Part shown: positions 5,944-64,000 of the stretch, in pieces | How positions within the stretch are numbered: position 1 is the stretch's first letter | Layout: each line of letters opens with the position of its first letter | Assembly: GCA_038373865.1 (NCBI GenBank) | Contig: JAXGGA010000071.1 | Location: 1-64,000 of the forward strand | Source of the DNA: Uloborus plumipes | Taxonomy: Eukaryota > Arthropoda > Arachnida > Araneae > Uloboridae | Direction of reading: 5' to 3' | Length of the DNA: 64,000 bases | Position numbers and translations under genes: made by a program | The notes under the pieces: generated by a model | The model's database searches: none | What the model saw: the letters and a program-made list of their open reading frames with translations, nothing else | Told to the model about the DNA's origin: nothing

Positions 5944-7363
5944 CACTGCTCGACATTGAAAATGCAACACCAAGAAGGAGTGGTCAGAAATTGATGAAAT
6001 TTGGTAAGAAGACAGAGACAGCATGGAACAATAAGTGATATTTATTTCAAAATAAATAAGCAAAATTTAGAGCGAGGACGGCGTCGGCTCAGTAAGAAGT
6101 AGAACCACCGCGGACAGCGATGCACGAAGAAACACGTCTAGGCATGGAGTCAATAAGCCTGCGGATGGTGTCCTGAGGGATGGCACTCCATTCCCTTTCA
6201 ACCATTTGCCACAGTTCGTCCTCTGAACGAGGCAGTGACAGGTTCTGCAAACGGCGTCCAATCACGTCCCACACATGTTCGATTGGTGACAAGTTAGGAG
6301 AGTATGGTGGCCAGGAAAGCATCTGTACACCTCGTAGAGCATGTTGGCTGATTCGAGCACTGTGAGGCCGGGCGTTATCCTGTTGAAAAATTGCATTTGG
6401 CAGACCCTGAAGGTAGGGGATTGCCACCGGCCGCAGTACATTATCTACATATCGTTGGGCCGTCATAGTGCCCCGAATACGAACTAGAGGTGATACGGAA
6501 TTGTATGCAATAGCGCCCCAAACCATTATGCCACGTTGTCGTGCTGTGGGGCGTTCCACAGTTACTGCCGGATTCGATCTTTCTCCACGTCGACGCCACA
6601 CACGTATGCGATGACTATCGCTGGACAAACAGAAGCGGGATTCATCTGAGAACACTACGGTTTGCCATTCTGCCATCCACGTCGCTCTGGTCCGGCACCA
6701 TTCCAAACGTTGGAGTCTGTGCTGTGAGGTCAATGGCAGTCTTCTTAGCGGGCGCCGTGATTGCAGGCCACGTGCAACCAGTCGACGGGAAATGGTTCTG
6801 GTCGACACAGGAACATCCAGGGTACCTTGCACGTGCTGCAGAATCGACGTACAAGTGACTTGCGGGTCCGCCCCAGCATTTCGGTGAATCCGTCGATCCA
6901 AGCGGTCTGACGTCACTCTGGCTGCACCTGCACCCCTCAATGTGGCTACATTTCCTCTTTCCAACCATCTCCGACACAGCCGATGCACAGTGCTTGCATC
7001 CATGTGGGTATCAGCTGCAATTTGACGTATGGACCAACCTCCCCTTCTCAGTCCGATCACCATACCCCTTGTAAAGTCGTCTATATGCTGGAAGTGTCTT
7101 CGTTGAGGACGGCGTGGCATTTCCTCCTATCACACGTATCCTTCGAGACAAAAACCAAATTTCTCCGATAATTAGTCTGGCAGAAAAACCAACATGAACA
7201 TAGCCCACTTTTCAACTTCATTCTCTTATATCTTACTTCACGTGCGTCGGAGAGCTGCGCATTTCATATCATTTGCATAACTCAGTGACGTGCGTCTACG
7301 GTAAAATTTGCATGAATTTCTGACCACTCCTTCTTGGTGTTGCATTTTCAATGTCGAGCAGTG
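5944..7363 (-). mobile_element. Complete Tc1-like transposon, 1420 bp (copy 1)
   Basis: Perfect terminal inverted repeats of about 49 bp begin CACTGCTCGACATTGAAAAT and end GTGGTCAGAAATT. They are flanked by TA on both sides (5942-5943, 7364-7365), the hallmark of Tc1/mariner insertion. The element holds a single intact transposase gene on the minus strand. Two further copies lie in the window: 36183-37601 (1419 bp, nearly identical, one base missing) and 14652-15800 (diverged and truncated). Intact ends plus an intact gene make this a candidate autonomous, recently active copy. Confidence 0.93.
6089..7120 (-). CDS. Tc1/mariner-superfamily transposase, intact
   Basis: The 343-residue protein should bind the element's terminal repeats and catalyse cut-and-paste transposition at TA sites in the nucleus. 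The N-terminal ~120 residues hold two helix-turn-helix (paired-like) regions: GWSIRQIA with STVHRLCRRW (28-52), then LDRRIHR to TISRRL (74-114). The catalytic domain follows, with first Asp in FSDESRF (D159), the MVWGAI signature (199-204), second Asp in QQDNARPH (D248) and Glu in SPIEHVW (E281). By my count 32 residues separate D248 and E281 rather than the 34 usual for Tc1. The decayed copy and the frameshifted copy show the same spacing, so it is a family trait. The ATG start gives MPRRPQRR, conserved in the other near-identical copy. The length is typical of Tc1 transposases. No frameshift or stop is present. Confidence 0.93.
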   Translation of the reverse strand: MPRRPQRRHFQHIDDFTRGMVIGLRRGGWSIRQIAADTHMDASTVHRLCRRWLERGNVATLRGAGAARVTSDRLDRRIHRNAGADPQVTCTSILQHVQGTLDVPVSTRTISRRLVARGLQSRRPLRRLPLTSQHRLQRLEWCRTRATWMAEWQTVVFSDESRFCLSSDSHRIRVWRRRGERSNPAVTVERPTARQRGIMVWGAIAYNSVSPLVRIRGTMTAQRYVDNVLRPVAIPYLQGLPNAIFQQDNARPHSARISQHALRGVQMLSWPPYSPNLSPIEHVWDVIGRRLQNLSLPRSEDELWQMVEREWSAIPQDTIRRLIDSMPRRVSSCIAVRGGSTSY

Positions 7364-10300: not shown

Positions 10301-13040
10301 TATGTCAAGTAGCTTCGCTTCTTTGTTTGTTTTACAAATTCCATAAAATGTGTACTTATAATCTTTATTTTGCATTCACCACTGCCTGTTGCAGTTAGAT
10401 ATGATCAAGAAGGAAGTAAATAAAGGGATGATTTTGGTCAATGGTTATATCAAGAGACTTAAACTTACGTCGTTTCTAGTAAGGATACTAATTTTGTTAT
10501 TGACTTTACATTATCGACAAAAAATGACGTAAAAAAAGTGCGTGTTCTCTTAAAAACAACCAAATGAGAAATCTTAGAGATATTTTCATGTAAATAATGT
10601 CCTAAAGACTAAATATTTTACAGTAATAATTAAAAAAAACACCTTAATATTTAAGAACGAAAAACTTTGTAAACTGCTTTTTCAATAACTTAATCATGAC
10701 CTAGCTTCAATAACTGCGTCAAAAATATTCGAAAAACACATGTAACAAAAAAAAACTAATAATTTGTCAACATTATATTATAGCATGCAAATTTTAAAGT
10801 CAATGTCAGCGTGCAAATTGAAATATTGCAGAAGATTTGCTGCTCAGAGCTACTGGAAGTCCTTTTTCAATGGGTGGTATGTTTTTAATCTTCAAGTCTT
10901 GAACAGTAATCAAAGAAACGGAAAAAAAATGAAGTAGAAGATTCACTTAAGTCAAAACATGTTTCTTCAGTAGCTTTGCAGTATTTGGCTGAATAAAGTT
11001 AATTTATCAATTACTTATTTTTCGGCAGATTTTTTTTTTTTTTTTTTTTTTTTTTCATTTCTAGCGTTACCATCCACCGTTCGCCACTGGTAAAATTTTA
11101 AGGGCAAGAACGAAAAAGGCCTGCGAATCCATTACCTCCGCAGTCGCTTTTTTTATAATTGACGGATTAAAAAAGTGAGTTCTACTGCTCTGGGTATATT
11201 GGGGAATTAAAAAGTTAAATCTTACCAGACTATATACGGTTTTGAAAAAAAAAAACTTAAATAATTATGAAAGTTAAACTCGCTTCCGACCAATTAAAAG
11301 TTTTCACAGTCAAGAATAGCAGCCAATTGTTCACTCTTACCTCTTCGAAAGCTATTATTTTACACAAATTTAAGTTTACCTTTTTTATTTTTTTTTTCTT
11401 TTGGCGCACCATTTGGTGATGCATCGCCAAAAAAATGAAATATTATAGCGAGAAATATTCACCAAATAATTACTTTAAAGCAGACAAACAAATTTGTTTA
11501 GTAGATGTGTCATAAAAGATTACTAAGTTGGAACTAAAAATTATGGAGAAAAAGAAAAAAAAGGCTGATTGGGGGACGCATTTTTTTTTTACTATTTTTC
11601 ATTAAATAACATCGAAGCTTGTAATTTCGTTAGCTAAACAGCTCGGTGAGTTTTTTTTAGTGTCGCCAAGATTTTTAATGATATAAAATAGGAATTAATG
11701 CTTTACGGTCTTTTTATTGCCAATGTATTAAACTGAAACTATCATTTTCTAACATTTCGTGATTCTGTCAAAGTTTCAACTACGTGATTAAACAAAATAT
11801 ATATTTAATGTAGTTGTAGCGAAATTAGGATCTGGTAGGGTGACTTTTAAAGAAGCTCTAAGAGTTATCGGTTATGATAATTATCTCAAGCTGGAAATAG
11901 TTTTCAAGTACCTAATTTACTTATTGGGGTATTTTTTTTTTTCTCTCACTTGACGAAGAATCATCATAACTTGGAACATGTCAAATCGGTTATGTATTTC
12001 CTATTCAGTACTCATTAAGATTTTTTTCACTGCTTGATTGAACTTTTTTGTTTTTGTAAACCAAATTTCTTTTAACCATCACTTTTTTTTTTTTTTTTGA
12101 AAACATACCATATAATTGAATCTCTCGTGAGATATTTTTTTTTATTGCTCCAACAGTAGAAAATTCAAAGTTGTCACAAAAAATATTTTTTAAGCAAAAC
12201 ACCTGTTTAAAAGGTTTATATCTGCTAATTGGAGAACAATAAGGCTTTCTATAAAACGTACTCTTCCTTTAAAAGTCATAACATTGGGCATAGAAAAAGC
12301 TGACGTAATATAAAATTAACTAGAGTTTTGAAATTAGAAAGCCTAATTTAACGCTAAAACTGCTCAAAAATGAAACTCTACAGAAATTGGGTTAAAAATT
12401 GGTCCCCAGTGTAATTCTCTTTGTTATAAAAACGCAAAACATCAAAGATCATTTGAGATGCATTATGGTAATGTGTTTTTAATATTCTCACTAAAAGTAG
12501 AACTTTATAGATTATTTTCAGTTTATTATTATTTATTTACATTACATAACGTCTTATTTCTGCTTTAAACATTAAGAAGTGCCTTATTTTATAACATAAA
12601 AACAAGGTAGTACATTTTTTTAGTTACATTTCCCCTTTATATTTTAAGACCGAACAGAAAATACGAATCACCACTAATTCCAATCTTCAGTGTTTTCTTA
12701 CCAAATAATAAAATAGAAACATCTAAATAGATTTGTACTTAGTTCTAGCTACGGGAAATACATTTATTTTCCTTTCAGGTCCTTTAAAAATAGTGGTTTA
12801 AAGAATTGAAAGCTCAAAGGAAATGCCTAATATAATCAGTGAATTTAGACTCAACTATACTTTTAAAAGAAGTTAGTTAAAATCAAATTAGCTTTTGTTT
12901 AGTCTGTAAGGAATAGTAAAATAATGATAGAGCTCTCGAATCCATAATTAGCAAATACGTTCATGTTTTATTTTTATCTTTATATCACTTCCATATAAAA
13001 TTACAATTGCTTAATATGAAAATTAAAATACTTTAAACAT
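7366..13040. other. Long AT-rich intergenic stretch, no gene seen
   Basis: About 5.7 kb of AT-rich DNA with homopolymers (T runs at 7551-7568, 11031-11055 and 12086-12098; A runs throughout). Open frames are short and of low complexity. I found no terminal inverted repeats, tRNA-like boxes or recognisable protein fragments. Old unrecognisable repeats are likely but cannot be shown by eye. Confidence 0.4.
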
Positions 13041-13357
13041 ACAATACACCCCCAACTCGGCTATTTCGATCCATGGACTGCACCCGAGCTCTGCTTTAAA
13101 ATTTACGATTTGTACCGTACCAAGTGCGGTCGCTTGCTGGTATTCTAATTTCACATTAGCTACCAGTTTTTTTCGGCTCTCTTTCCTCTGTGAGAGGATT
13201 TTTGCCTCCAACTCGGTTACTTTCGTATTCCATACTGATGTGTGCATAATTAGTACGAAACTGCAGTCCATGGATCGAAATAACCGAGTTGAAGGTGTAT
13301 TGCATGTTCCTGCCTTAGACCTTGCTTAGGGGCGATTATTCACTGCTTTATACTCTG
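13041..13357 (+). mobile_element. Hammerhead-ribozyme element, copy 1 (~317 bp)
   Basis: The left arm (13041-13083, CAATACACCCCCAACTCGGC then GATCCATGGACTGCA) is the reverse complement of the right arm (13262-13308, TGCAGTCCATGGATCG then AACCGAGTTG, GTGTATTGCATG). The right arm is part of a hammerhead ribozyme on the plus strand. The tail, CCTTAGACCTTGCTTAGGGG to TTTATAC, matches the tail of the copy at 52446-52680, where the middle segment and the full ribozyme lie in the opposite orientation. No protein is encoded. A retrozyme-like or Penelope-derived non-autonomous element is the best interpretation. Confidence 0.75.
13209..13291 (+). ncRNA. Type I hammerhead ribozyme, core slightly mutated
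   Basis: Core: CTGATG at 13235-13240 followed by T where A9 is expected, a 4-bp stem II (GTGC at 13242-13245 with GTAC at 13253-13256, one G-U pair), GAAA at 13257-13260, a minimal self-complementary stem III in CTGCAG, and the cleavage triplet GTC at 13266-13268. Stem I is long: the inner part TCCAT pairs with ATGGA, and the outer CAACTCGGTTA (13209-13219) pairs perfectly with TAACCGAGTTG (13281-13291). The A9-to-U change should weaken or abolish cleavage. The very short stem III resembles animal hammerheads that are thought to act as dimers. Confidence 0.8.
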
Positions 13358-14651: not shown

Positions 14652-15800
14652 CACTGCTCGACATTGAAAATGCAACACCAAGAAGGAGTGGTCAGAAATT
14701 TATGCAAATTTTTGAGTAGCTGCACGTCACTGAGTTATGCAAATGATGTGAAATGCGCAGCTCTCCTACGCGCGTCAAATAAGATATAAGGGGAGGAACT
14801 CGCAGAATAGGCAATATTCGTGTCGTTATTTCTGTTAGACAAATTATCAAAGACATTGTGCTTTTGTCTCGGAGGATACGTGTAATAGGAGATAATGCCA
14901 GGCCACTGTCAACGAAGGCACTTCCAACAAATAGACGATTTTACGAGGGGTGTGGTAATCGGAGAAGGGGGAATTGGTCCACACGTCAAATCGCAGGTGA
15001 TACCCACGTGGATGCGAGCACGGTGCATCGGCTGTGTCGAAGATGGTTGGAACTAGGAAATGAGGCAAGATTGAGGCGTGCAGCTGCAGCCAGAGTGACG
15101 TCAGCACGTGTGGATCGACGCATTCAGCGACAAGCTGTGGCCGACCAGCAAGTCACTTGTACCTTGATTCTGCAGCATGTGCAATATACCCTGAATGCTC
15201 CCGTGCAGACCAGAACCATTTACCGTCGATTGAGTGCGCGTGGCCTGCAATCACGGCGTTCGCTAAGAAGACTGCCATTGACGCCACATCATAGACGCTA
15301 ATGTTTGGCATGGTGCCGGACTAAAGTGACGTGGAGGGCAGAATGGCAAAATGTCGTGTTCTCAGATGAGTCGCACTTCTGTTTATCCAGTGACAGTTGC
15401 CGCATACGTGTGTAGCATCGACGCGGAGACAGATCTAATCCGGCAGTAACTGTGGAACGCCCCGCCGCACGACAACGTGGCATAATGGTTTGGAGCGTTA
15501 TTTCGGACAATTCCATATCACCTCTAGCTCGTATTCTGGGCACTGTGACAGCCCAACGGAACTTGGAAAATGTACTGTGGTTGGTGAAAATCCCCTACCT
15601 GCAGGAACTGACTAATGCAATTTTTCAGTAGGATAACGCCTGACCACACAGTGCTCGCATCTGCCAACATGCTCTCCAAGTGACTCAGATGTTTCCTTGG
15701 CCACCGTACTCTCAAGATTAGTCACCAATCGAACATGTGTGGGATGTGATTTTACGCCGTTTGCAGAATCTGCTCCTGCCTCGTTCAGAAGACGATTGTT
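14652..15800 (+). pseudogene. Decayed, 3'-truncated Tc1-like element (copy 2)
   Basis: The left terminal repeat is intact (CACTGCTCGACATTGAAAAT, preceded by TA at 14650-14651). Homology to the transposase of the complete element then runs to about 15800, where it stops inside the region encoding LPRSEDELW; the right terminal repeat is missing. The start region is frameshifted. Recognisable blocks STVHRLCRRW, then the stop in CATAGACGCTAATG near 15300, and further stops at 15631 (CAGTAG), 15643 and 15718 show long decay. The second-Asp to Glu distance is again 32 residues. Not functional. Confidence 0.9.
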
Positions 15801-16197: not shown

Positions 16198-18576
<2,379 letters not shown>

Positions 18577-18798: not shown

Positions 18799-19502
18799 CT
18801 AAATCATTTTACGAGGAAAATGTTGTGTCAAAAACATATTATTTTCAGAGAAAAAATAATTTTTTTACAAATAAAATGTGTTCTAAAAATAGAATCAAAT
18901 GGGCACAGTCAAAATTTGTTTTATTTAAATTCAGTTTTAAATAAACCAAACTTCTATTTATTTCGTCGAAGGAGTTCATGTCCAAAAATAGCTCGAGCAC
19001 AAGATATCTTCACTCGTCTCAGGCATCTATTTGATAAGTCTTTCTTGGGAAGTCAAATAGAGCGACAAGGCACAAGTTAATAATGCCGAGTGTGGTTTGA
19101 CAGCCACTGATATTATGTGTGTTTCTATGCTTAAATTCATACAACAGTATGTTTGCCCCGAGCCGATGAAAGTTTTCCCTCATTGATTCCAATCAAAGTG
19201 TGAGTTCTGACGAGCGGAATATCATGACTTGAATAGAAAGTTTTTTGTTTCTTTTTTTTATTTCTATTGTATTTATTCGTTCACACCTTATAAAAGTCCA
19301 ATAAAGGTAGTGAATCAGTTAAGGACAGAACAAAAAATCCTAAACATTATTGAGTAAGCAGTTTATTTTTTCGGATTTGATTTCTTGACCATTCGATTTT
19401 TAAAACAAGTCAATATTCTTTTTACAAACTAAACAAAACAAAAGGTTTGTTTGGCAAATATTTTTATTGTGAATAAAATATAAAATATTGACATTGGTAT
19501 AA
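18799..19502. other. No gene seen
   Basis: AT-rich spacer between the LINE fragment and the hammerhead element. An 86-codon frame at 18820-19080 has no recognisable feature. Confidence 0.4.
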
Positions 19503-19677
19503 GCAAATATACCTACAGCTCGAGTAATCTTTGCTTCAGCTCGGTTACTGACTATTCATGACTGATGAGTTCTTAACAAGGACGAAACTGTAGTCTCATG
19601 ATGTCATGAACGAGCTCTAGAAATATTTACTTATAGTTCTGCTTTTGCCTTAGCTTATAGTCTGTAATTTACTACAT
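19503..19677 (+). mobile_element. Hammerhead-ribozyme element, copy 2 (~175 bp)
   Basis: A short left arm (GCAAATATACCTACAGCTCG, 19503-19522) is inverted relative to the right arm (ACGAGCTCTAGAAATATTTA, 19610-19629), enclosing the ribozyme. The 3' tail (GTTCTGCTTTTGCCTTAGCT then TATAGTCTGTAATTTAC) corresponds to the tail of the copies at 13 and 52 kb. Ends are approximate; no target duplication was identified. Confidence 0.65.
19538..19616 (+). ncRNA. Type I hammerhead ribozyme with complete catalytic core
   Basis: All core elements are present in order. CTGATGA is at 19562-19568. Stem II is GTTCT (19569-19573) pairing with AGGAC (19579-19583) around a five-base loop. GAAA is at 19584-19587. 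A minimal stem III lies in CTGTAG. The cleavage triplet GTC is at 19593-19595, so the predicted cut is between 19595 and 19596. Stem I is a perfect 6-bp helix, TCATGA (19556-19561) with TCATGA (19596-19601), followed by an internal loop and an outer helix, AGCTCG (19538-19543) with CGAGCT (19611-19616). It probably self-cleaves when transcribed, with the tiny stem III suggesting dimeric action. This is the best-preserved of the four copies. Confidence 0.88.
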
Positions 19678-20940
19678 ACTGGTTAAGGACACATGTGTCC
19701 TCCATCAACAAGACCCTACTACTACACCAAAACAACCAAACACACACTACAAAAGAAAATAATAGAAAAAATGCAATAACGTTAAAGAATGAAATAAGTG
19801 AAAAATCGTAAGTCTAGCTCTGTGTCACATTACACCTTTGGACAGATGTTTTCCACATAGGCTCTGCAGACCCCTTGGGTTGTCTGTCACTTCGACAGAG
19901 ATATGCAACTAATCGCTCTTTGCATGTAAAAAAGCCAAAACTTCAACAACAAAAAATCTATTAAAAAGTTTGAATTCTTAAAAATGCAGTTTTTCTGTTG
20001 AATAAATAGACTGGCTGACGGAACTTCTTTAAAATTTAAAGTAATATTACATTTGTTTATTTATTTGCAGGGTAAATTTTAAAGTGCTGAAAAACCCCAT
20101 TAGCAAACTTATAATTCATTACATTATAAAAATGCTTGTACTAGTGTAAAATAGAGATGCAATAAAATATATGTTTTTTTTTTAATTTAGGTACCATAAA
20201 GCGTGGCTATCCTTTTTCTACTCTTTGACCAAGAAATTCCTTCTCTAAAAAAATCTAGCTCAAAGGTTTCCCGAATTTATCAAAAGCTGAATATCAGTTT
20301 CAAGACATTAAAGAAATACCGTTATTTCTTTATCAGAGTCTGGATGCAATGATAAAAGAGTTAAAATAAAACAGTGGTTAAAGGTCTTGTTCGCATATTA
20401 TTTGTTCCGAATATGAAATATAATTTTTCTTGTAATTCGTATGATAATTTTTATTTTTGTAAATTATAAACTAAGATGAAATGTGCGCATGAATATTCGT
20501 ACTTGATTCGTATCAATTTGTGCTTTTTTGTCTTTTTATTTAAAGTATATTAAGAAACTTTCAGCCGGAAATTAGTTGACGCTATAGAACTAAGAAAAGC
20601 AATGCCATTCGGTGATTTTGTGTTGAACTCAATTTTCAGTCCTGATAAAATTTGCAGTAGAGACTTTCAGAGAAGAAATAAATACCATAGTGTCGAAGGT
20701 AAATAACAACATTTTAACGGTAGTTAATCCTGTATGAACGGTAAATAGTCCCACTATATTTTCATAGATTTTTTTTTCCTTTAGTTATAAAATAAGTTGC
20801 TTTTGTATGATTGAAACTTTAAAAAAAGAGTACTGTGTCATATTTCTCCTATCCGAGAAAGTTCTTTGTAGCAATAGAGATTTTAATAAAAATTATAGTA
20901 ATAATCGTTTTTTAGGGTAGATTAATTGTTTATTTTGACA
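19678..20940. other. No gene seen
   Basis: AT-rich DNA without recognisable proteins, terminal repeats or RNA genes. Confidence 0.4.
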
Positions 20941-22629: not shown

Positions 22630-25305
22630 AGTCCGTGGAGTTAGTGCAAAAATATTTCACTTCCGGATACCAGTCTAAAATTTTATGTGGGGCTTATATT
22701 CACATAGGAGGACAAAAAAACGCCGGGAGACACTTGATCGGAGGTCAAGGTCATTCTGTGATGACGTCATCAAAATGGCCGCTTTTACAGGTAAATACGT
22801 TCGTTTAACTGCTTAAAGCTCCATCACAGATTCAAATATTGCAAAACTCAAATATATCATTTGAAAGCTCTTTAAAAAATTCTATTTAGAAAGATTTAAT
22901 TTTTCCTTCTGAGGTCAAGGTCTCACCTGTTATAACGTCATCAAAATGGCCGCTTTACAGGTAAATACGTTTGTTTAACTCCCCCTAAAACTCCATCATA
23001 GATTGAAATCTTGCAAAACTCAAATATATCATATGAAAGCTATTTAAAAGAGCTATTTAAAAGGATTTAATTTTTCTTTCTAAGGTCAAGGGCCCACCTG
23101 TGATGACGTCATCAAAATGACCGCTTTTACAGGTAAATACGTTTGTTTAACTCCCCCTAAAACTCCATCATAGATTCAAATATTACAAACTAAAATGTAT
23201 CATCTAAAAGCTCTTTAAAAGAGCTATTTAAAAAGATTCAATTTTTCTTTCTGAGGTCAAGGTCCCACCTGTAAGGACATCATCAAAATGGCCGCTTTTA
23301 CAGGTAAATACGTTTAACTCCCCCTAAAACTCCATCATAGATTTAAATATTTCAAAACTCAAATATATCATCTAAAAGCTCTTTAAAAGAGCTATTTAGA
23401 AGGATTTCTTTTTTCTTTCTGAGGTCAAGGGCCCACCTGTAATGACGTCATCAGAATGGCCGCTTTTACAGGTAAATACGTTTGTTTAACTCCCCTTAAA
23501 ACTCCATCATAGATTTAAATATCTCAAAACTCAACTATATCATCTGAAAGCGCTTTAAAAGATCTATTTAGAAAGATTTAATTTTTCTTTCTGCGGTCAA
23601 GTGCCCACCTGTGATGACGTCATCAAAATGGCCACTTTTACAGGTAAATAAGTTTAACTCCCCCTAAAACTCCATCATAGATTCAATTATTGCAAAACTC
23701 AAATACATCATCTGAAAGCGCTTTAAAAGATCTATATAGAAAGATTTCATTTTTCTTTCTAAGGTCAGGGTCATTCTGTGATGACGTCATCAAAATGGCC
23801 GTTTTTACAGGTAAATACGTTTGTTTAACTCCTCCTAAAACTCCATCATAGATTTAAATATTTCAAAACTCAACTATATCATCTGAAAGCGCTTTAAAAG
23901 ATCTATTTAGAAAGATTTAATTTTTTTCTGAGGTCAAGGGCCCATCTGTGATGACGTCATCAAAATGGCCGCTTCTACTCGCAAATGCGCTCATGTAACT
24001 GTTTAAAACTCCATCATAGATTTAAATATTGCAAAACTGAAATATATCATCAGAAAGCGCTTTAAAGGAGCTATTTAAAAGTGCTTGGTTTTATTTTCTA
24101 AGACAAATAGTTGAAAAGTTATAACAATTTTAATTTGAAAATTTATAAAAAAGACAATTTCTTTGTATTTGCCGACTTTGAGGTGAAAATTTCGCTGTGA
24201 TGCATGCATTAAAAAAATCTTTCCAATTTTATTACATTTAAGAATAAATTGGTAGAACTACGTACTACTTATCGGTATTTTATGTAGATATTGAATGTAA
24301 CAGTTTTCCTTGTAACAGAGTTATTTTTTCCGTATTTCTTTTATGTAAATAAAATGCAAGCATTTTTGACACAATTTTTGATGACGATATTATTAGTTAC
24401 ATCTCAGCCTCTTTAGGAGCTTTGGCTCTGCTTGTTTCTGCATTGCAACATCTGTTACATTCAATATCTACATAAAATACCGAATAATAGTACATAGTTC
24501 TACTAATTTATTCTTAAATGTAATAAAATTGGAAAGATTTTTTTATAATGCATGCATCACAGCGAAATTTTTACCTCAAAGTCATTTCAATACAAAGAAA
24601 TTGTCTTTTTTATACATTTTCAATTTAAAATTGTTATAACTTTTCAACTATTTGTCTTAGAAAATAAAACCAAGCACTATAAAATTACTCTTTTAAAGCG
24701 CTTTCGAATGATATATTTCAGTTTTGCAATATTGAAATCTATGATGGAGTTTTAAACAGTTACATGAGCGCATTTACCTGTAAAAGCGGCCATTTTGACG
24801 ATGTCATCACAGTTGGGCCCTTGACCTCAGAAAGAAAAATTAAATATTTCAAAATAGATCTTTTAAAACGATTTCAGATGATATAGTTGAGTTTTGCAAT
24901 ATTTCAATCTATGATGGAGTTTTAAGCAGTTAAACGAACGTATTTACCTGTAAAAGCGGCCATTTTGATGACGTCATCACAGGTGGGACCTTAACCTCAG
25001 AAAGAAAAATTAAATCTTTCTAAATAGCTCTTTCAAAGAGCTTTCAGATGATACATTTCAGTTTTGCAATATTTCATTCTATGATGGAGTTTTAAGCAAT
25101 TAAACGAACGTATTTACCTGTAAAAGCGGCCATCTTGATGACGTCATCACGGGAGTTCATGACCCCTGATCAAGTGTCTCCCGGCGATTTTTTGTTTTTA
25201 TATATGTACATTAGCTCTGTACCAAATTTCACACTGGTATCCGGAAGTGAAATATTTCGGCTGTTTTTGTCGCTAACTCCACAGACTATTCCGAATAAGG
25301 CACCG
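22630..25305. mobile_element. Long palindromic (foldback) element with CRE-like tandem repeats
   Basis: Outer arms: TCCGTGGAGTTAG, TATTTCACTTCCGGATACCA and GCCGGGAGACACTTGATC at 22632-22735 recur inverted at 25180-25290. The arms next contain ~170-bp tandem units (left, about eight units, 22736-24110; right, three inverted units, about 24690-25180). The inner arms (24112-24305 and 24450-24660, including GTGATGCATGCAT and ACATTCAATATCTACATAAA) are again inverted copies around a ~150-bp unique centre. No protein is encoded. Such architecture (long terminal inverted repeats made of subterminal tandem repeats) is that of foldback-type elements. The outermost ends and target duplication are not resolved. 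Confidence 0.82.
22736..24110 (+). repeat. ~170-bp tandem array, eight units, each with a TGACGTCA motif
   Basis: Each unit reads, in order: GAGGTCAAGG, a GTGATGACGTCATCAAAATG core, GCCGCTTTTACAGGTAAATA, AACTCCCCCTAAAACTCCAT, AAAACTCAAATATATCATC and AAAGCTCTTTAAAAGAGCTA. Cores occur near 22761, 22931, 23101, 23271, 23441, 23611, 23780 and 23948, with minor mutations at 22931 (AACGTCATC) and 23271 (GACATCATC). TGACGTCA is the CREB/ATF palindrome, and the adjoining AAAATGGCCGC resembles a YY1 site. Inverted copies of the same units lie near 24796, 24966 and 25137. Confidence 0.9.
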
Positions 25306-36182: not shown

Positions 36183-37601
36183 CACTGCTCGACATTGAAA
36201 ATGCAACACCAAGAAGGAGTGGTCAGAAATTCATGCAAATTTTACCGTAGACGCACGTCACTGAGTTATGCAAATGATATGAAATGCGCAGCTCTCCGAC
36301 GCACGTGAGGTAAGATATAAGAGAATGAAGTTGAAAAGTGGGCTATGTTTATGTTGGTTTTTCTGCCCGACTAATTATCGGAGAAATTTGGTTTTTGTCT
36401 CGAAGGATACGTGTGATAGGAGGAAATGCCACGCCGTCCTCAACGAAGACACTTCCAGCATATAGACGACTTTACAAGGGGTATGGTGATCGGACTGAGA
36501 AGGGTAGGTTGGTCCATACGTCAAATTGCAGCTGATACCCACATGGATGCAAGCACTGTGCATCGGCCGTGTCGGAGATGGTTGGAAAGAGGAAATGTAG
36601 CCACATTGAGGGGTGCAGGTGCAGCCAGAGTGACGTCAGACCGCTTGGATCGACGGATTCACCGACAAGCTGTGGCGGACCCGCAAGTCACTTGTACGTC
36701 GATTCTGCAGCACGTGCAAGGTACCCTGGATGTCCCTGTGTCGACCAGAACCATTTCCCGTCGACTGGTTGCACGTGGCCTGCAACCACGGCGCCCGCTA
36801 AAAAACTGCCATTGACCTCACAGCACAGACTTCAACGTTTGGAATGGTGCCGGACCAGAGCGACGTGGATGGCAGAATGGTACACCGTAGTGTTCTCAGA
36901 TGAATCCCGCTTCTGTTTGTCCAGCGATAGTCATCGCATACGTGTGTGGCGTCGACGTGGAGAAAGATCGAATCCGGCAGTAACTGTGGAACGCCCCACA
37001 CCGCGACAACGTGGCATAATGGTTTGGGGCGCTATTGCATACAATTTCGTATCACCTCTAGTTCGTATTCGGGGCACTATGACTGCCCAACGATATGTAG
37101 ATAATGTACTGCGGCCGGTGGCAATCCCCTACCTTCAGGGTCTGCCAAATGCAATCTTTCAACAGGATAACGCCCGGCCTCACAGTGCTCGAATCAGCCA
37201 ACATGCTCTACGAGGTGTACAGATGCTTTCCTGGCCACCATACTCTCCTGACTTGTCACCAATCGAACATGTGTGGGACGTGATTGGACGCCGTTTACAG
37301 AACCTGTCACTGCCTCGTTCAGAGGACGAACTGTGGCAAATGGTTGAAAGGGAATGGAGTGCCATCCCTCAGGACACCATCCGCAGGCTTATTGACTCCA
37401 TGCCTAGACGTGTTTCTTCGTGCATCGCTGTCCGCGGTGGTCCTACTTCTTACTGAGCCGACGCCGTCCTCGCTCTAAATTTTGCTTATTTATTTTGAAA
37501 TAAATATCACTTATTGTTCCATGCTGTCTCTGTCTTCTTACCAAATTTCATCAATTTCTGACCACTCCTTCTTGGTGTTGCATTTTCAATGTCGAGCAGT
37601 G
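36183..37601 (+). mobile_element. Tc1-like transposon, 1419 bp (copy 3)
   Basis: Both ~49-bp terminal repeats are intact (CACTGCTCGACATTGAAAAT ... GTCGAGCAGTG) and flanked by TA (36181-36182, 37602-37603). The sequence is nearly identical to the complete copy at 5944-7363 but lies in the opposite orientation and is one base shorter. That difference equals the deletion that breaks the transposase. The close similarity implies recent transposition. Confidence 0.93.
36426..37456 (+). pseudogene. Tc1-like transposase broken by a single-base deletion
   Basis: The frame opens with the same ATG (MPRRPQRRHF) as the intact copy and stays colinear through the helix-turn-helix region to about residue 124. 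There a base is missing in CCCGCTAAAAAACTGCC near 36800-36806 (the intact copy has CCCGCTAAGAAGACTGCC). Downstream, the catalytic domain continues in another frame from LPLTSQHRL through FSDESRF, QQDNARPH and SPDLSPIEHVW to a normal stop at about 37456, with no other stop. At residues 81-83 it reads QAV where the intact copy reads NAG. The protein is not made in full, but the termini could be mobilised by copy 1. Confidence 0.92.
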
Positions 37602-41899: not shown

Positions 41900-42085
41900 G
41901 AATTACATGGTGTACTCAATTTACATTAGCTACCAGCTTGGTAGCACTTTCAGCTTCTTTAAACGGACATCTACATTCAGCTAGGTTATTAGCTATTCCA
42001 GCCTGATGAGTCCATAATAAGGACAAAAATGCAGTCTCTGGATGGTGTAACTGAGATGACGGTGTTTTGCAAGTACATGCATATT
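41900..42085 (+). mobile_element. Hammerhead-ribozyme element, copy 3
   Basis: The segment starts with TTTACATTAGCTACCAG, also found in the 13-kb element (13151-13168), continues into a degenerate hammerhead and ends in GACGGTGTTTTGC, corresponding to the arm of the other copies. Boundaries are approximate. Confidence 0.6.
41979..42058 (+). ncRNA. Type I hammerhead ribozyme, G12 mutated
   Basis: CTGATGA is at 42003-42009. Stem II is a perfect GTCC (42010-42013) with GGAC (42021-42024). Where GAAA is expected there is AAAA (42025-42028), which replaces the catalytic G12. TGCA stem III remnants and the GTC triplet (42034-42036) follow. Inner stem I pairs TCCAG with CTGGA, and the outer stem (CAGCTAGGTTA with TAACTGAG) is imperfect. 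Probably inactive, but clearly homologous to the copies at 13, 19.5 and 52.5 kb. Confidence 0.75.
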
Positions 42086-44130: not shown

Positions 44131-45157
44131 AATTGGCAACAGTTAAAAATTTCAAATCATTGAAAGTTTTCAGCTGTTTTGATAATTAAATAGCGTGAAA
44201 GCGATTTTTTAAAGAATTAATTTTTCGCATTGTTGACTAAGCGCAAAAATCACCCCACCCTCCCCCTGGGGCGATTGGCGCCAAAATTTAATCGATGCTT
44301 GCTTCCATATTGGGTTAGTGATATTCCAAATTTCATTCAAATCGCAGCAATATTTCTCGAGATACAGTAGGTGCAATGACAAAATAAGCACTTTTGATTG
44401 CTCCACCCCCCTTTGAGATATTGACACACAAATTGAATCAGCACTTGTACTCAATAGGGTCTACCTATGGACCAATTTTCGTTTAATTCCGCCAGTTACT
44501 TCTTGAGATATAGCAATCACCCCCCGCGCAGAACACGTGCGATTGCTCCACTCCCCTTTGAGATATTGACACGCAAATTAAATCATCACTTGTACATGGT
44601 AAGGTCTACCTATAGACCAATTTTCGTTTAATTCCGCCGGTTACTTCCTGAGATATAGCAATCACCCCCACGCAGAACACGTGCGATTGCTCCATACCCC
44701 TTCGAGATATTGACACGCAAATTGAATCAGCACCTGTACTCAGTAGGGTCTACCTATGAACCAATTTTCGTTTGATTCCGCCGGTTACTTCCTGAGATAT
44801 AGCAATCACCTACGCGCAGAACACGTGCGATTGCTCCACCCCCCTTGGAGGAATTCGCTAAACAAAGTCAGGTGCACCAGTTCACATGGTGGTACATATG
44901 TGCAAAAATTTTTGTTCGATTTCATGCAGTAGTTTTTGCTCTAGCGTGGCCACAAAAACTGGTCACACACATACAGACTCACACACAGACAGACACACAG
45001 ACGGACACACAGACAGACACACAGACAGACATTTTTCAAAAATAGTCGAAATGGACTCAGCGCACCTCAAAACGTGCAAATCCGTCAAAATTCGACATTC
45101 GAAAATTTTCACGAAACCAATACTTTCTTCTATATATTAGATATAGAAGAAAGTAAA
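44131..45157 (-). repeat. Hairpin-ended dispersed repeat with ~144-bp tandem units, copy 1
   Basis: Read on the minus strand, it begins with the hairpin TACTTTCTTCTATAT/ATATAGAAGAAAGTA (about 45120-45157). It continues with GTCGAATTTTGACGGATTTG, a (CTGT)n/(TG)n tract and GTGCACCTGACTTTGTTTAG. It then runs through three ~144-bp units (TGATTGCTATATCTCAGGAA, AAACGAAAATTGGTCC, ATATCTCAAAGGGG) and ends in a conserved block near GAAATTGGCAACAG. Copies in direct orientation occur at 61121-62431 and 62960-64000. The class is unknown; I see no terminal inverted repeats between the two ends. Confidence 0.8.
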
Positions 45158-52047: not shown

Positions 52048-52445
52048 ATTTCCGCTAGTTCGTATTGCCGTTCCAACACGGAAAAATTTGCGAATGAACC
52101 CTTTTTCTGCAACATTTTAAACCTTTTCCCTTATTAAATGCTCTTTTTACTCCCTACTATTCACAATATTTAAAACTGCCTTTTGCTTGAGCTTTATGGG
52201 CTTTGTCTTTCCCCGAATCTTTTTTATAACCTACTGAATTTATTCTCGTTTTTACATAGTCTACTTTCCCAGTTAAAGTAAAAGAAAGGCTTAAAAAAGC
52301 ATTAAAAGTGGCTTAATGCATGTTGAAAATATCGCAGTTCCCCAAAAAACAGTCAAAAAGAAAGAAAAAAAAACAAGTATTGAAAACTTAAAAGTTTTTT
52401 TTTTTTTTTGTTCGAAAGATCTCGTCTAGAACACCTAATTCCCAT

Positions 52446-52680
52446 GCAATACACCGCCAACTCGGCCATTTTGATCCATTTACTGCAGTTTCGTGCTAAT
52501 TATGCACTCATCAGCGTGGAATACGAAAGTAACGGAGTTGGAGCAAAAATCCTCTTGTAGAGCAAAGAGAGCCAAAAACAAAACTGCAGTCCGTGGATCA
52601 AAACGACCGAGTTGGCAGTGTATTGTATGTTCCCTCCTTAGCCCTTGCTTAAGGGCGGTTACTCACTGATTTATACCTCG
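52446..52680 (-). mobile_element. Hammerhead-ribozyme element, copy 4, 235 bp with 7-bp target duplication
   Basis: Flanked by TTCCCAT at 52439-52445 and 52681-52687. Related uninterrupted repeat units carry a single ATTCCCATATTT, so the empty site can be inferred. The left arm (GCAATACACCGCCAACTCGG onward) holds a complete hammerhead on the minus strand. A middle piece (GCAAAAATCCTCTTGTAGAG, AAAGAGAGCC) is the inverse of the same piece in the 13-kb copy. The right arm repeats the ribozyme's 3' half on the plus strand (ACTGCAGTCCGTGGATC, GACCGAGTTGGC, GTGTATTGTATG). The tail CCTTGCTTAAGGGCGGTTAC to TTTATACCTCG is shared with the 13-kb copy. Confidence 0.82.
52458..52540 (-). ncRNA. Type I hammerhead ribozyme, core intact
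   Basis: On the minus strand: CTGATGA (complement of 52508-52514), a perfect stem II GTGC/GCAC with loop ATAATTA, GAAA (complement of 52489-52492), minimal stem III CTGCAG, and cleavage triplet GTA (complement of 52481-52483), which satisfies the NUH rule. Inner stem I has mismatches next to the core (only TCCA/TGGA pairs), while the outer helix CAACTC/GAGTTG is intact. Cleavage activity is plausible but probably weaker than at the 19.5-kb copy. Confidence 0.8.
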
Positions 52681-61120: not shown

Positions 61121-62431
61121 TACTTTCTTCTATATCTATTATATAGAAGAAAGTATTGGTTTCGTAAAAATTTTCGAATGTCGAATTTTGACGGATTTGC
61201 ACGTTTTGAGGTGCGCTGAGTCCATTTCGACCATTTTTGGAAAATGTCTGTCTGTGTGTGTGTGTGTGTGTGTGTGTCTGTCTGTGTGTGAGTCTGTATG
61301 TGTGTGACCAGTTTTTGTGGCCGCGCTAGAGCAAAAACTACTGCATGAAATCGAACAAAAATTTTTTCACATATGCACCACCATGTGAACTGGTGCACCT
61401 GACTTTGTTTAGCGAATTCCTCCAAGGGGGGTGGAGCAATCGCACGTGTTCTGCGCGTGGGTGATTGCTATATCTCAGGAAGTAACCGGCGGAATAAAAC
61501 GAAAATTAGTCCATAGATAGACCCTACCGAGTACAGGTGCTGATTCAATTTGCGTGTCAATATCTCGAAGGGGGTGGAGCAATCGCACGTGTTCTGCGCG
61601 TGGGTGATTGCTATATCTCAGGAAGTAACCGGCGGAATCAAACGAAAATTGGTCCATAGGTAGACCCTACCGAGTACAGGTGCTGATTTAATTTGCGTGT
61701 CAATATCTCGAAGGGGGGTGGAGCAATCGCACGTGTTCTGCGCGGGGGTGATTGCTATATCTCAGGAAGTAACAAGCGGAATCAAACGAAAATTGGTCCA
61801 TAGATAGACCCTATAGAGTACAGGTGCTGATTCAATTTGTGTGTCAGTATCTTGAAGGGGGGTGGAGAAATCGCACGTGTTCTGCGCGGGGGTGATTGCT
61901 ATATCTCAGGAAGTAACAGGCGGAATCAAACGAAAATTGGTCCATAGGTAGACCCTATTGAGTACAATCGCTGATTCAATTTGTTTGTCAGTATCTTGAA
62001 GGGGGGTGGAGAACTCGCACGTGTTCTGCAACGGGGGTGATTGCTATATCTCAGGAAGTAACAATCGGAATCAAACGAAAATTGGTCCATAGGTAGACCC
62101 TATTGAGTACAATCGCTGATTCAATTTGTGTGTCAATATCTCAAATGGGGGTGGAGCAATCAAAAGTGCTTATTTTGTCATTGCACCTACTGTATCTCGG
62201 GAAATATTGCTGCGATTTGAATGAAATTTGGAATAACACTAACCCAATATGGAAGCAAGCATCGATTAAATTTTGGCGCCAATCGCCCCAGGGGGAGGGT
62301 GGGGTGATTTTTGCGCTTAGTCAACAATGCGAAAAATTAATTCATTAAAAAATCGCTTTCACGCTATTTAATTATCAAAACAGCTGAAAACTTTCAATGA
62401 TTTGAAATTTTTAACTGTTGCCAATTTCTTT
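61121..62431 (+). repeat. Hairpin-ended dispersed repeat, copy 2
   Basis: Starts with the 15-bp hairpin TACTTTCTTCTATAT (61121-61135) and ATATAGAAGAAAGTA (61141-61155). Then come TTCGTAAAAATTTTCGAATG, a (TG)n/(CTGT)n tract and GTGCACCTGACTTTGTTTAG. Five ~144-bp tandem units follow (GGTGGAGCAATCGCACGTGT at about 61430, 61573, 61719, 61862 and 62004). The closing block (TTTTGGCGCCAATCGCCCCA, GGGGAGGGTGGGGTGATTTTT) ends near CTGTTGCCAATTTC. Nearly identical to copy 3, which starts 1839 bp downstream in the same orientation. A frame through the closing block (62103-62348) is also open in the inverted copy at 44209-44454. Confidence 0.85.
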
Positions 62432-62959: not shown

Positions 62960-64000
62960 TACTTTCTTCTATATCTATTATATAGAAGAAAGTATTGGTT
63001 TCGTAAAAATTTTCGAATGTCGAATTTTGACGGATTTGCACGTTTTGAGGTGCGCTGAGTCCATTTCGACCATTTTTGGAAAATGTCTGTCTGTGTGTGT
63101 GTGTATGTGTGTGTGTCTGTCTGTGTGTGAGTCTGTATGTGTGTGACCAGTTTTTGTGGCCGCGCTAGAGCAAAAACTACTGCATGAAATCGAACAAAAA
63201 TTTTTTCACATATGCACCACCATGTGAACTGGTGCACCTGACTTTGTTTAGCGAATTCCTCCAAGGGGGGTGGAGCAATCGCACGTGTTCTGCGCGTAGG
63301 TGATTGCTATATCTCAGGAAGTAACCGGCGGAATAAAACGAAAATTGGTCCATAGATAGACCCTACCGAGTACAGGTGCTGATTTAATTTGCGTGTCAAT
63401 ATCTCGAAGGGGGGTGGAGCAATCGCACGTGTTCTGCGCGGGGGTGATTGCTATATCTCAGGAAGTAACAAGCGGAATCAAACGAAAATTGGTCCATAGA
63501 TAGACCCTATAGAGTACAGGTGCTGATTCAATTTGTGTGTCAGTATCTTGAAGGGGGGTGGAGAAATCGCACGTGTTCTGCGCGGGGGTGATTGCTATAT
63601 CTCAGGAAGTAACAGGCGGAATCAAACGAAAATTGGTCCATAGGTAGACCCTATTGAGTACAATCGCTGATTCAATTTGTTTGTCAATATCTCCAAGGGG
63701 GGTGGAGCAATCGCGCGTGTTCTGCACGAGGGTGACTGCTATATCTCAGGAAGTAACCGGCGAAATCAAACGAAAATTGGTCCATAGGTAGACCCTATTG
63801 AGTACAGGTGCTGATTCAATTTGTGTGTCAATATCTCAAATGGGGGTGGAGCAATCAAAAGTGCTTATTTTGTCATTGCACCTACTGTATCTCGGGAAAT
63901 ATTGCTGCGATTTGAATGAAATTTGGAATAACACTAACCCAATATGGAAGCAAGCATCGATTAAATTTTGGCGCCAATCGCCCCAGGGGGAGGGTGGGGT
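62960..64000 (+). repeat. Hairpin-ended dispersed repeat, copy 3, cut by the window end
   Basis: Same opening hairpin, TG-rich tract and GCGAATTCCTCCAAGG junction as copy 2, then four ~144-bp units (about 63270, 63412, 63556, 63701) and the start of the closing block. The window ends inside GGGGAGGGTGGGGT. Confidence 0.85.

Follow-up and report, generated by a model that had tools for sequence, protein, structure and literature searches.

We analysed a stretch of 64,000 nucleotides from the spider Uloborus plumipes (contig JAXGGA010000071.1, positions 1 to 64,000 of the forward strand), hereafter referred to as the window. Within it lies a type I hammerhead ribozyme with a complete core, carried by a short insertion, c19. 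This insertion is a dispersed copy of a non-LTR metazoan retrozyme; such elements are non-coding and short, here with units of about 270 nt that each contain a single type I hammerhead. Positions in the unit are numbered from the first base 3' of the cleavage site (u1). The features of the insertion are:

19498-19680, plus strand: whole family B retrozyme insertion c19, a short inverted fragment followed by a forward fragment; the right end is at about 19678-19680 (u82-84)
19498-19522, minus strand: inverted fragment, all 25 of whose bases match another copy, L046, read as reverse complement over about u16-u40
19538-19616, plus strand: type I hammerhead ribozyme with complete core (core check, Rfam and sequence reading)
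19556-19601, plus strand: match to Rfam RF00163 including inner stem I, 28.2 bits
19617-19680, plus strand: 3' tail, the part of the unit that follows the hammerhead, reaching u82-84 approximately

The hammerhead has its three stems in order and is open at stem I, and 13 of 13 core positions fit (checked over 19535-19620). Outer stem I pairs AGCTCG (19538-19543) with CGAGCT (19611-19616) and can be lengthened to 19547/19607, which gives 10 positions, 9 of them paired. Inner stem I pairs TCATGA (19556-19561) with TCATGA (19596-19601). The core elements CTGATGA (19562-19568) and GAAA (19584-19587) enclose stem II, GTTC/GGAC (19569-19572/19580-19583), which includes one G.U pair and can be lengthened by U-A pairs. 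Stem III (19587-19594) consists of three pairs and a 2-nt loop, and the last base of the GTC is 19595; by homology to known hammerheads, cleavage is predicted at 19595/19596. The sequence-only reading, which described a full-core type I hammerhead with all parts in the right order, is borne out on this point by the core, both parts of stem I, stems II and III, and the GTC.

A covariance-model search, proposed in the same reading as a check, gave a divided answer. The RF00163 score of 28.2 bits does not reach the curated gathering score of 34, and a search at the gathering threshold did not list c19. The match is nevertheless significant, with E=4.9e-5 for the 351 bases searched and E=0.009 for the 64 kb window and 4227 Rfam families. 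Among 20 other sources, one match scored at least 34 (34.1, in L033). The bare core pattern says little by itself, because it was present at least once in 21 of 100 shuffled windows as well. Chance is excluded for c19 because of the 144 family matches and the covarying stems described below; the ribozyme motif and its membership of a retrozyme family are secure. Since every core base is kept, c19 may plausibly cleave when it is transcribed by read-through. Energy models, which are blind to the hammerhead core, give lowest-energy folds for the c19 segment, alone and with flanks, that differ from the full hammerhead. The activity of c19 could be reduced by such alternative folds, or if 19498-19522 paired with the 3' strand of stem I.

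The insertion is about 183 bp long. After the inverted fragment it runs from about u203 to u271 and then from u1 to u82 of a 271-nt unit, so that it comprises one hammerhead and about 151 of the 271 unit positions in a single partial unit. No target-site duplication (TSD), flanking direct repeats or neighboring tandem copy was found at c19. With one hammerhead and a partial unit, c19 cannot release a unit-length circle, and the earlier suggestion that this copy gives rise to small circular RNAs is not supported; tandem arrays elsewhere could release unit-length circles. A Pfam scan of all six frames of 12-27 kb in the window returned a Tc1-type transposase only, with no reverse transcriptase (RT) or GIY-YIG domain, and the idea that the hammerhead belongs to a Penelope element sited at c19 was rejected on this ground.

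The window contains other repeats as well. Similar transposase-like ORFs lie at 6089-7126 (minus strand), 14783-15301 (plus) and 36420-37456 (plus), and the copy at about 15 kb matches DDE_3 and HTH_Tnp_Tc3_2. A stretch between two TA repeats, at about 16200-17680, ends in a GC hairpin and CTAGT, resembling the end of a Helitron. At 22756-25150, a 170-bp tandem array is followed by its inverted counterpart round a short centre, in a fold-back-like arrangement with arms of up to 249 nt that are 93% complementary. Arrays with a 144-bp period, whose units look similar, occur at 44396-44850, 61420-62161 and 63259-63856.

Three further copies of the retrozyme are present in the window, at 13207, 41976 and 52455. 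When 19400-19800 was compared with the window by blastn, 30 of 36 bases were identical at 42003-42038, and c19 aligns with the corresponding copy, c42, over 86 positions without a gap. A model built from c19 and c42 then found 13207-13294 (plus strand, E=2e-14) and 52455-52542 (minus strand, E=2e-10). The features of these copies are:

13036-13353, plus strand: family A insertion c13, with a left inverted fragment from u40 and a right forward unit to u85
13207-13294, plus strand: c13 hammerhead, A9 lost
41976-42061, plus strand: degenerate hammerhead c42, with G12 changed to A; in stem I, both partners of pairs 1.3 and 1.4 have changed and still pair
52443-52677, minus strand: family A insertion c52, with ends at u38 and u86
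52542-52455, minus strand: c52 hammerhead, core kept, cleavage-site base A

Damage in c42 extends to pair 1.1, one stem III pair and parts of the outer stem, in addition to G12; the shuffle control for covariation between the two rows c19 and c42 was weak (122/500). Cores are intact in two of the four window copies, c19 and c52. A further model match on the minus strand (13293-13206, 20.4 bits) was discarded as a copy, since it is the outer stem of c13, a palindrome, read in reverse.

Searches of the whole 1.42-Gb assembly showed that the retrozymes form two related families, A and B, whose units of about 270 bp occur in tandem arrays; this agrees with the earlier assignment of the hammerhead to the retrozyme kind. 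The c19 segment served as the query for family B and the 13-kb copy as the query for family A. For the former, 40 of 1086 first-look candidate places were scored and yielded 50 matches; for the latter, 40 of 3358 were scored and yielded 175. These figures are not copy counts. In the window and 60 fetched loci, the model found 144 matches at E<=0.01: 75 in 20 family A loci, 65 in 40 family B loci (among which the A-like L080 is counted), and 4 in the window. The core is intact in 94 of these 144 rows (66/75 in A loci, 26/65 in B loci, 2/4 in the window), and 30 of the 60 loci hold a single hammerhead. Tandem units measure 256-278 bp in both families (seen in L047, L048, L049, L067 and L068). 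For one unit of each family, GC content was 0.456 (A) and 0.435 (B), and self-pairing of the unit RNA exceeded that of shuffled sequences, with z of -4.95 (A) and -2.74 (B). The units have no long ORF, the longest stop-free stretch in doubled units being 89 aa (A) and 45 aa (B). The core base most often lost is G12 (17 of 144 rows). Its usual context, GGACGAAA, makes it part of a CpG; thus, CpG decay may silence old ribozymes. First exact-pattern scans of viral and prokaryote collections returned no match, and a later scan returned 18 loci in the viral collection, whose loops differ and in which no relation to the retrozymes was seen.

The fold of the family was examined in a MAFFT alignment of 34 copies chosen from the 144 rows of both families, which was not fitted to the structure. 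In this alignment, 96.7% of cells were paired, compared with 23-32% in slid controls. Nine of the 23 pairs had changed on both sides, a result matched by 11 of 500 shuffles, and the covariation score was reached by none of the 500; these shuffles leave the relatedness among copies in place. A middle helix of stem I added 5 pairs, 3 of them changed on both sides. When the 52 rows of family B were taken by themselves, 88.9% of cells were paired, compared with at most 37% when slid. Here 10 pairs had changed on both sides, which is weak evidence for covariation because the version slid by one also gave 10 such pairs. Compensatory changes among genomic copies are thus present in the mixed A/B alignment and weaker in B alone. 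The RNAalifold consensus, computed without knowledge of the hammerhead core, departed in part from that core by pairing its CTG with CAG.

Dispersed copies are fragments, frequently with an inverted part. Hammerheads at most 500 bp apart in the 60 fetched loci formed 58 tandem, 22 divergent and 0 convergent neighbor pairs, so that close inverted neighbors were head-to-head in 22 of 22 cases; L028 and L030 are copies of one segmental duplication, and dropping L030 leaves 21 divergent pairs. Some loci had been fetched for inverted neighbors in the match lists, with direction being no criterion; because loci were partly picked in this way, the share of inverted pairs is not an estimate of their frequency. 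Among the listed matches that were not fetched, read by eye, there was no convergent pair, and four more were divergent (C1606, C9787, C3731 and C3551).

The outer ends of the insertions favor two sites, approximately 37 and 85 nt downstream of the cleavage site. We mapped 84 outermost downstream ends by anchored extension, leaving out L030, and dropped four for which the stretch ended at <60 nt. In family A (n=30), 10 ends fell at u34-42, 14 at u79-87 and 6 elsewhere, placing 24 of 30 within these windows; in family B (n=50), the numbers were 20, 6 and 24, placing 26 of 50 within them. None of the 80 ends lay beyond u130. Family B copies are more diverged and their ends less exact, and the 24 ends outside the windows represent either diverged copies or real scatter. 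The two windows were fixed after the first end data had been viewed; the best two 9-nt windows placed anywhere hold 25 (A) and 29 (B) ends, numbers that in 300 simulations with uniform ends never rose above 14 and 19. The inverted fragment of the A query, which ends at u40, may favor left ends near u37 in L056-L058. The queries ended near u44-45, and therefore query selection cannot create the peak at u85.

The two sites are usually divided between the two sides of an insertion. Thirty-one head-to-head insertions were classified by their BLAST ends, with site windows of u34-43 and u79-88. Of the 14 with both ends at a site, 12 had one site on each side (expected 49%, P 0.005), which leaves a one-sided tail of about 48 nt. 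No pair was predicted when a conserved stem-loop was sought in the tail (19 sequences). Clear TSDs directly flank such ends in 3 of the 24 insertions examined: two were detected by script, in L054 (up to 14 bp) and L062 (up to 13 bp), where 2-3 of the bases may be the element's own, and one by eye, in L028 (10 bp). The other 21 had no clear TSD. The mean longest flank match was 5.25, compared with 4.27 in re-paired flanks.

The same genome harbors Penelope-like elements. A GIY-YIG domain was found at 81 places, from 138 scored in the genome. Eight ORFs or parts of ORFs were scanned: four whole ORFs have an N-terminal GIY-YIG and a C-terminal RT, and two further ORF pairs, each split by one TGA, have GIY-YIG in the first part and RT in the second, with three of the GIY-YIG and RT matches below the curated cut-off. 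The arrangement of an N-terminal GIY-YIG with an RT is presumably of the Naiad type; no Penelope-like element whose endonuclease is C-terminal was found. A single in-frame TGA splits the ORFs of two families at each of the nine places read (L099-L103, L109 and L113). Selenocysteine is encoded in the Naiad elements of spiders and clams. A scan of 8 loci, among them L101 and L109, gave no SECIS match up to E 0.5.

Neighboring Penelope-like matches, picked from the GIY-YIG table, were divergent in 9 cases, tandem in 3 and convergent in 0. In one near-identical family there are two end sites, one after ACACCTA(A) and the other about 80 nt further on, after TTTCACCC, and TA repeats adjoin them. In all 4 of the 4 head-to-head insertions for which both ends were seen (L100, L101 with L117, L102 and L103), one site was found on each side. 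A TA microsatellite is present on both flanks of these copies.

The sequence-only reading had also connected hammerheads of this form with Penelope-like elements. The connection holds for insertion layout, as head-to-head inverted copies and a one-sided tail are traits of the Penelope type that the retrozyme has; it does not hold for the ribozyme, since the examined Penelope-like loci contain no convincing hammerhead of their own. A descriptor search of 18 such loci found no hammerhead, model R1 on the same loci matched a retrozyme relic (L103) and one further place at chance level (L111), and the Rfam hammerhead model found none in 8 of the 18. No convincing sequence shared between the retrozyme and the Penelope-like elements was detected in the 18 loci; two matches of 21-23 nt occurred in L105 (E 0.007 and 0.086). 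A Penelope-type ORF, with telomerase-like RT and GIY-YIG, is absent from the retrozyme units. The retrozyme thus behaves in a Penelope-like way in its insertion layout and is not itself a Penelope-like element.

From the insertion footprints, we infer that retrozyme copies are made in trans by a Penelope-type RT and primed from both strands of the target. The process would begin with multimeric transcripts of tandem arrays, which hammerheads would cut into unit RNAs, and these may circularise. A Penelope-type RT would then copy the retrozyme RNA in trans, starting cDNA synthesis internally at the two preferred sites, near u37 and u85. With one such start on each strand of the cut target, two cDNAs would meet head-to-head. 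We assign this reading a probability of roughly 0.7; the selection of loci slightly reduces our confidence in mobilisation of the Penelope type. A broader proposal, towards which we lean only slightly, is that animal retrozymes are SINE-like partners of Penelope elements: they would carry a downstream module with two RT starts, one site being used on each cut strand, under a rule common to these hammerhead-bearing elements and to the hammerhead-less Penelope elements with an N-terminal endonuclease in the same genome.

The strongest rival, which we nevertheless think unlikely, is that head-to-head copies form by self-priming (snap-back) of a single cDNA. This has already been proposed for the head-to-head repeats of rotifer Penelope elements (PMC3846280). 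It also accords with the finding that the two arms of family B insertions are more alike within than between insertions: for 14 pairs, none of 2000 re-pairings gave a similarity as high, while for 7 pairs of family A, 342 of 2000 did so. A single template would give the same likeness in family B. Against self-priming, the two sides stop at different sites in 12 of 14 insertions, and one snap-back alone leaves the split between u37 and u85 unexplained.

Mobilisation by a LINE RT, with the head-to-head copies being 5' inversions formed by twin priming, appears less probable still. Twin priming is expected to yield divergent inversions only, as is observed here, and RT genes of other classes are abundant in the genome (9691 RVT_1 candidates, 150 scored, in a search that is not informative on Penelope-like elements). 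Under twin priming, the inverted arm should also end at variable positions. Both outer ends favor fixed positions instead, including that of the inverted arm, and no recurrent poly-A was found at the tabulated insertion ends.

It is very improbable that the element is a DNA transposon (MITE), bounded by terminal inverted repeats and carrying hammerheads by chance. At first look, c13, c52 and palindromic B copies do resemble such elements. However, units also occur in direct tandem arrays, a finding that led us to drop this identity; moreover, the two ends usually lie at different unit positions, 30 of the 60 loci have a single hammerhead, and no linked transposase was seen. Least probable of all is a lone hammerhead domesticated within an intron, like HH9/HH10 of amniotes, which the lack of a tandem copy beside c19 might suggest. 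We rejected it in view of the three relatives in the window and the 1086 candidate places in the genome, with the Tc1-type transposase as the only Pfam result in 12-27 kb.

We compared the retrozyme with known systems. The metazoan non-LTR retrozymes of Acropora, Mytilus and axolotl have units of 150-450 bp, tandem arrays, and TSDs of >4 bp when present (PMC7229834). The families described here share with them one type I hammerhead per unit, tandem arrays, several families per genome, a GC content of <50%, the lack of a long ORF and a strongly self-paired unit; the TSDs, of about 10-14 bp in 3 of 24 insertions, fit as well. They differ from that account in their inverted head-to-head insertions, in their two preferred end sites and in an extra covarying helix in stem I; the word 'inverted' is absent from the main text of PMC7229834. 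As in the satellite hammerheads of newt and axolotl, stem III is very short, whereas the unit is about 270 bp here and 330-350 bp there (PMC7229834). The stem III loop has the palindromic family consensus TGCA (TGTA in c19), and this palindrome may favor cleavage as a dimer. The LTR retrozymes of plants (PMC4918200) are likewise non-autonomous elements cut by hammerheads and differ in their type III hammerhead, LTRs, PBS and PPT.

The closest parallels in layout come from Penelope-like elements. Rotifer Penelope elements have head-to-head inverted pLTRs, one of which bears a 31-bp tail, with TSDs of 8-10 bp, and one inverted pLTR is 37 bp shorter (PMC3846280). In Anolis PAc, RT starts at 111-118 in the ORF and the hammerhead cuts at 26 (PMC11167929), which by our own subtraction places the RT start 85-92 nt after the cut. 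Two start sites bound the tail in PAc, both target strands are extended, and hammerhead mutants still insert in vitro (PMC11167929). The u37 and u85 sites of the retrozyme resemble these starts, and an end site 85 nt after the cut is common to both. Head-to-head copies, short TSDs and a one-sided tail are likewise shared, the tail being about 48 nt here compared with 31 bp and 30-40 bp in the Penelope elements (PMC3846280, PMC11167929). Unlike Penelope-like elements, the retrozyme lacks an ORF, and every stem is present in its hammerhead, in contrast to the minimal kind reported for them.

As the source of the enzyme that moves animal retrozymes, their original description names LINEs or Penelope-like elements, the latter being a strong candidate on indirect grounds (PMC7229834). 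What appears to be new is the combination of a head-to-head layout with two end sites at a fixed distance from the cut, usually one on each side, in common with Penelope-like elements; no statement of such a footprint was found in the literature searched, in which subscription papers are mostly absent. The insertion footprint is evidence of another kind as to which enzyme this is, and it predicts where the cDNAs of animal retrozymes start.
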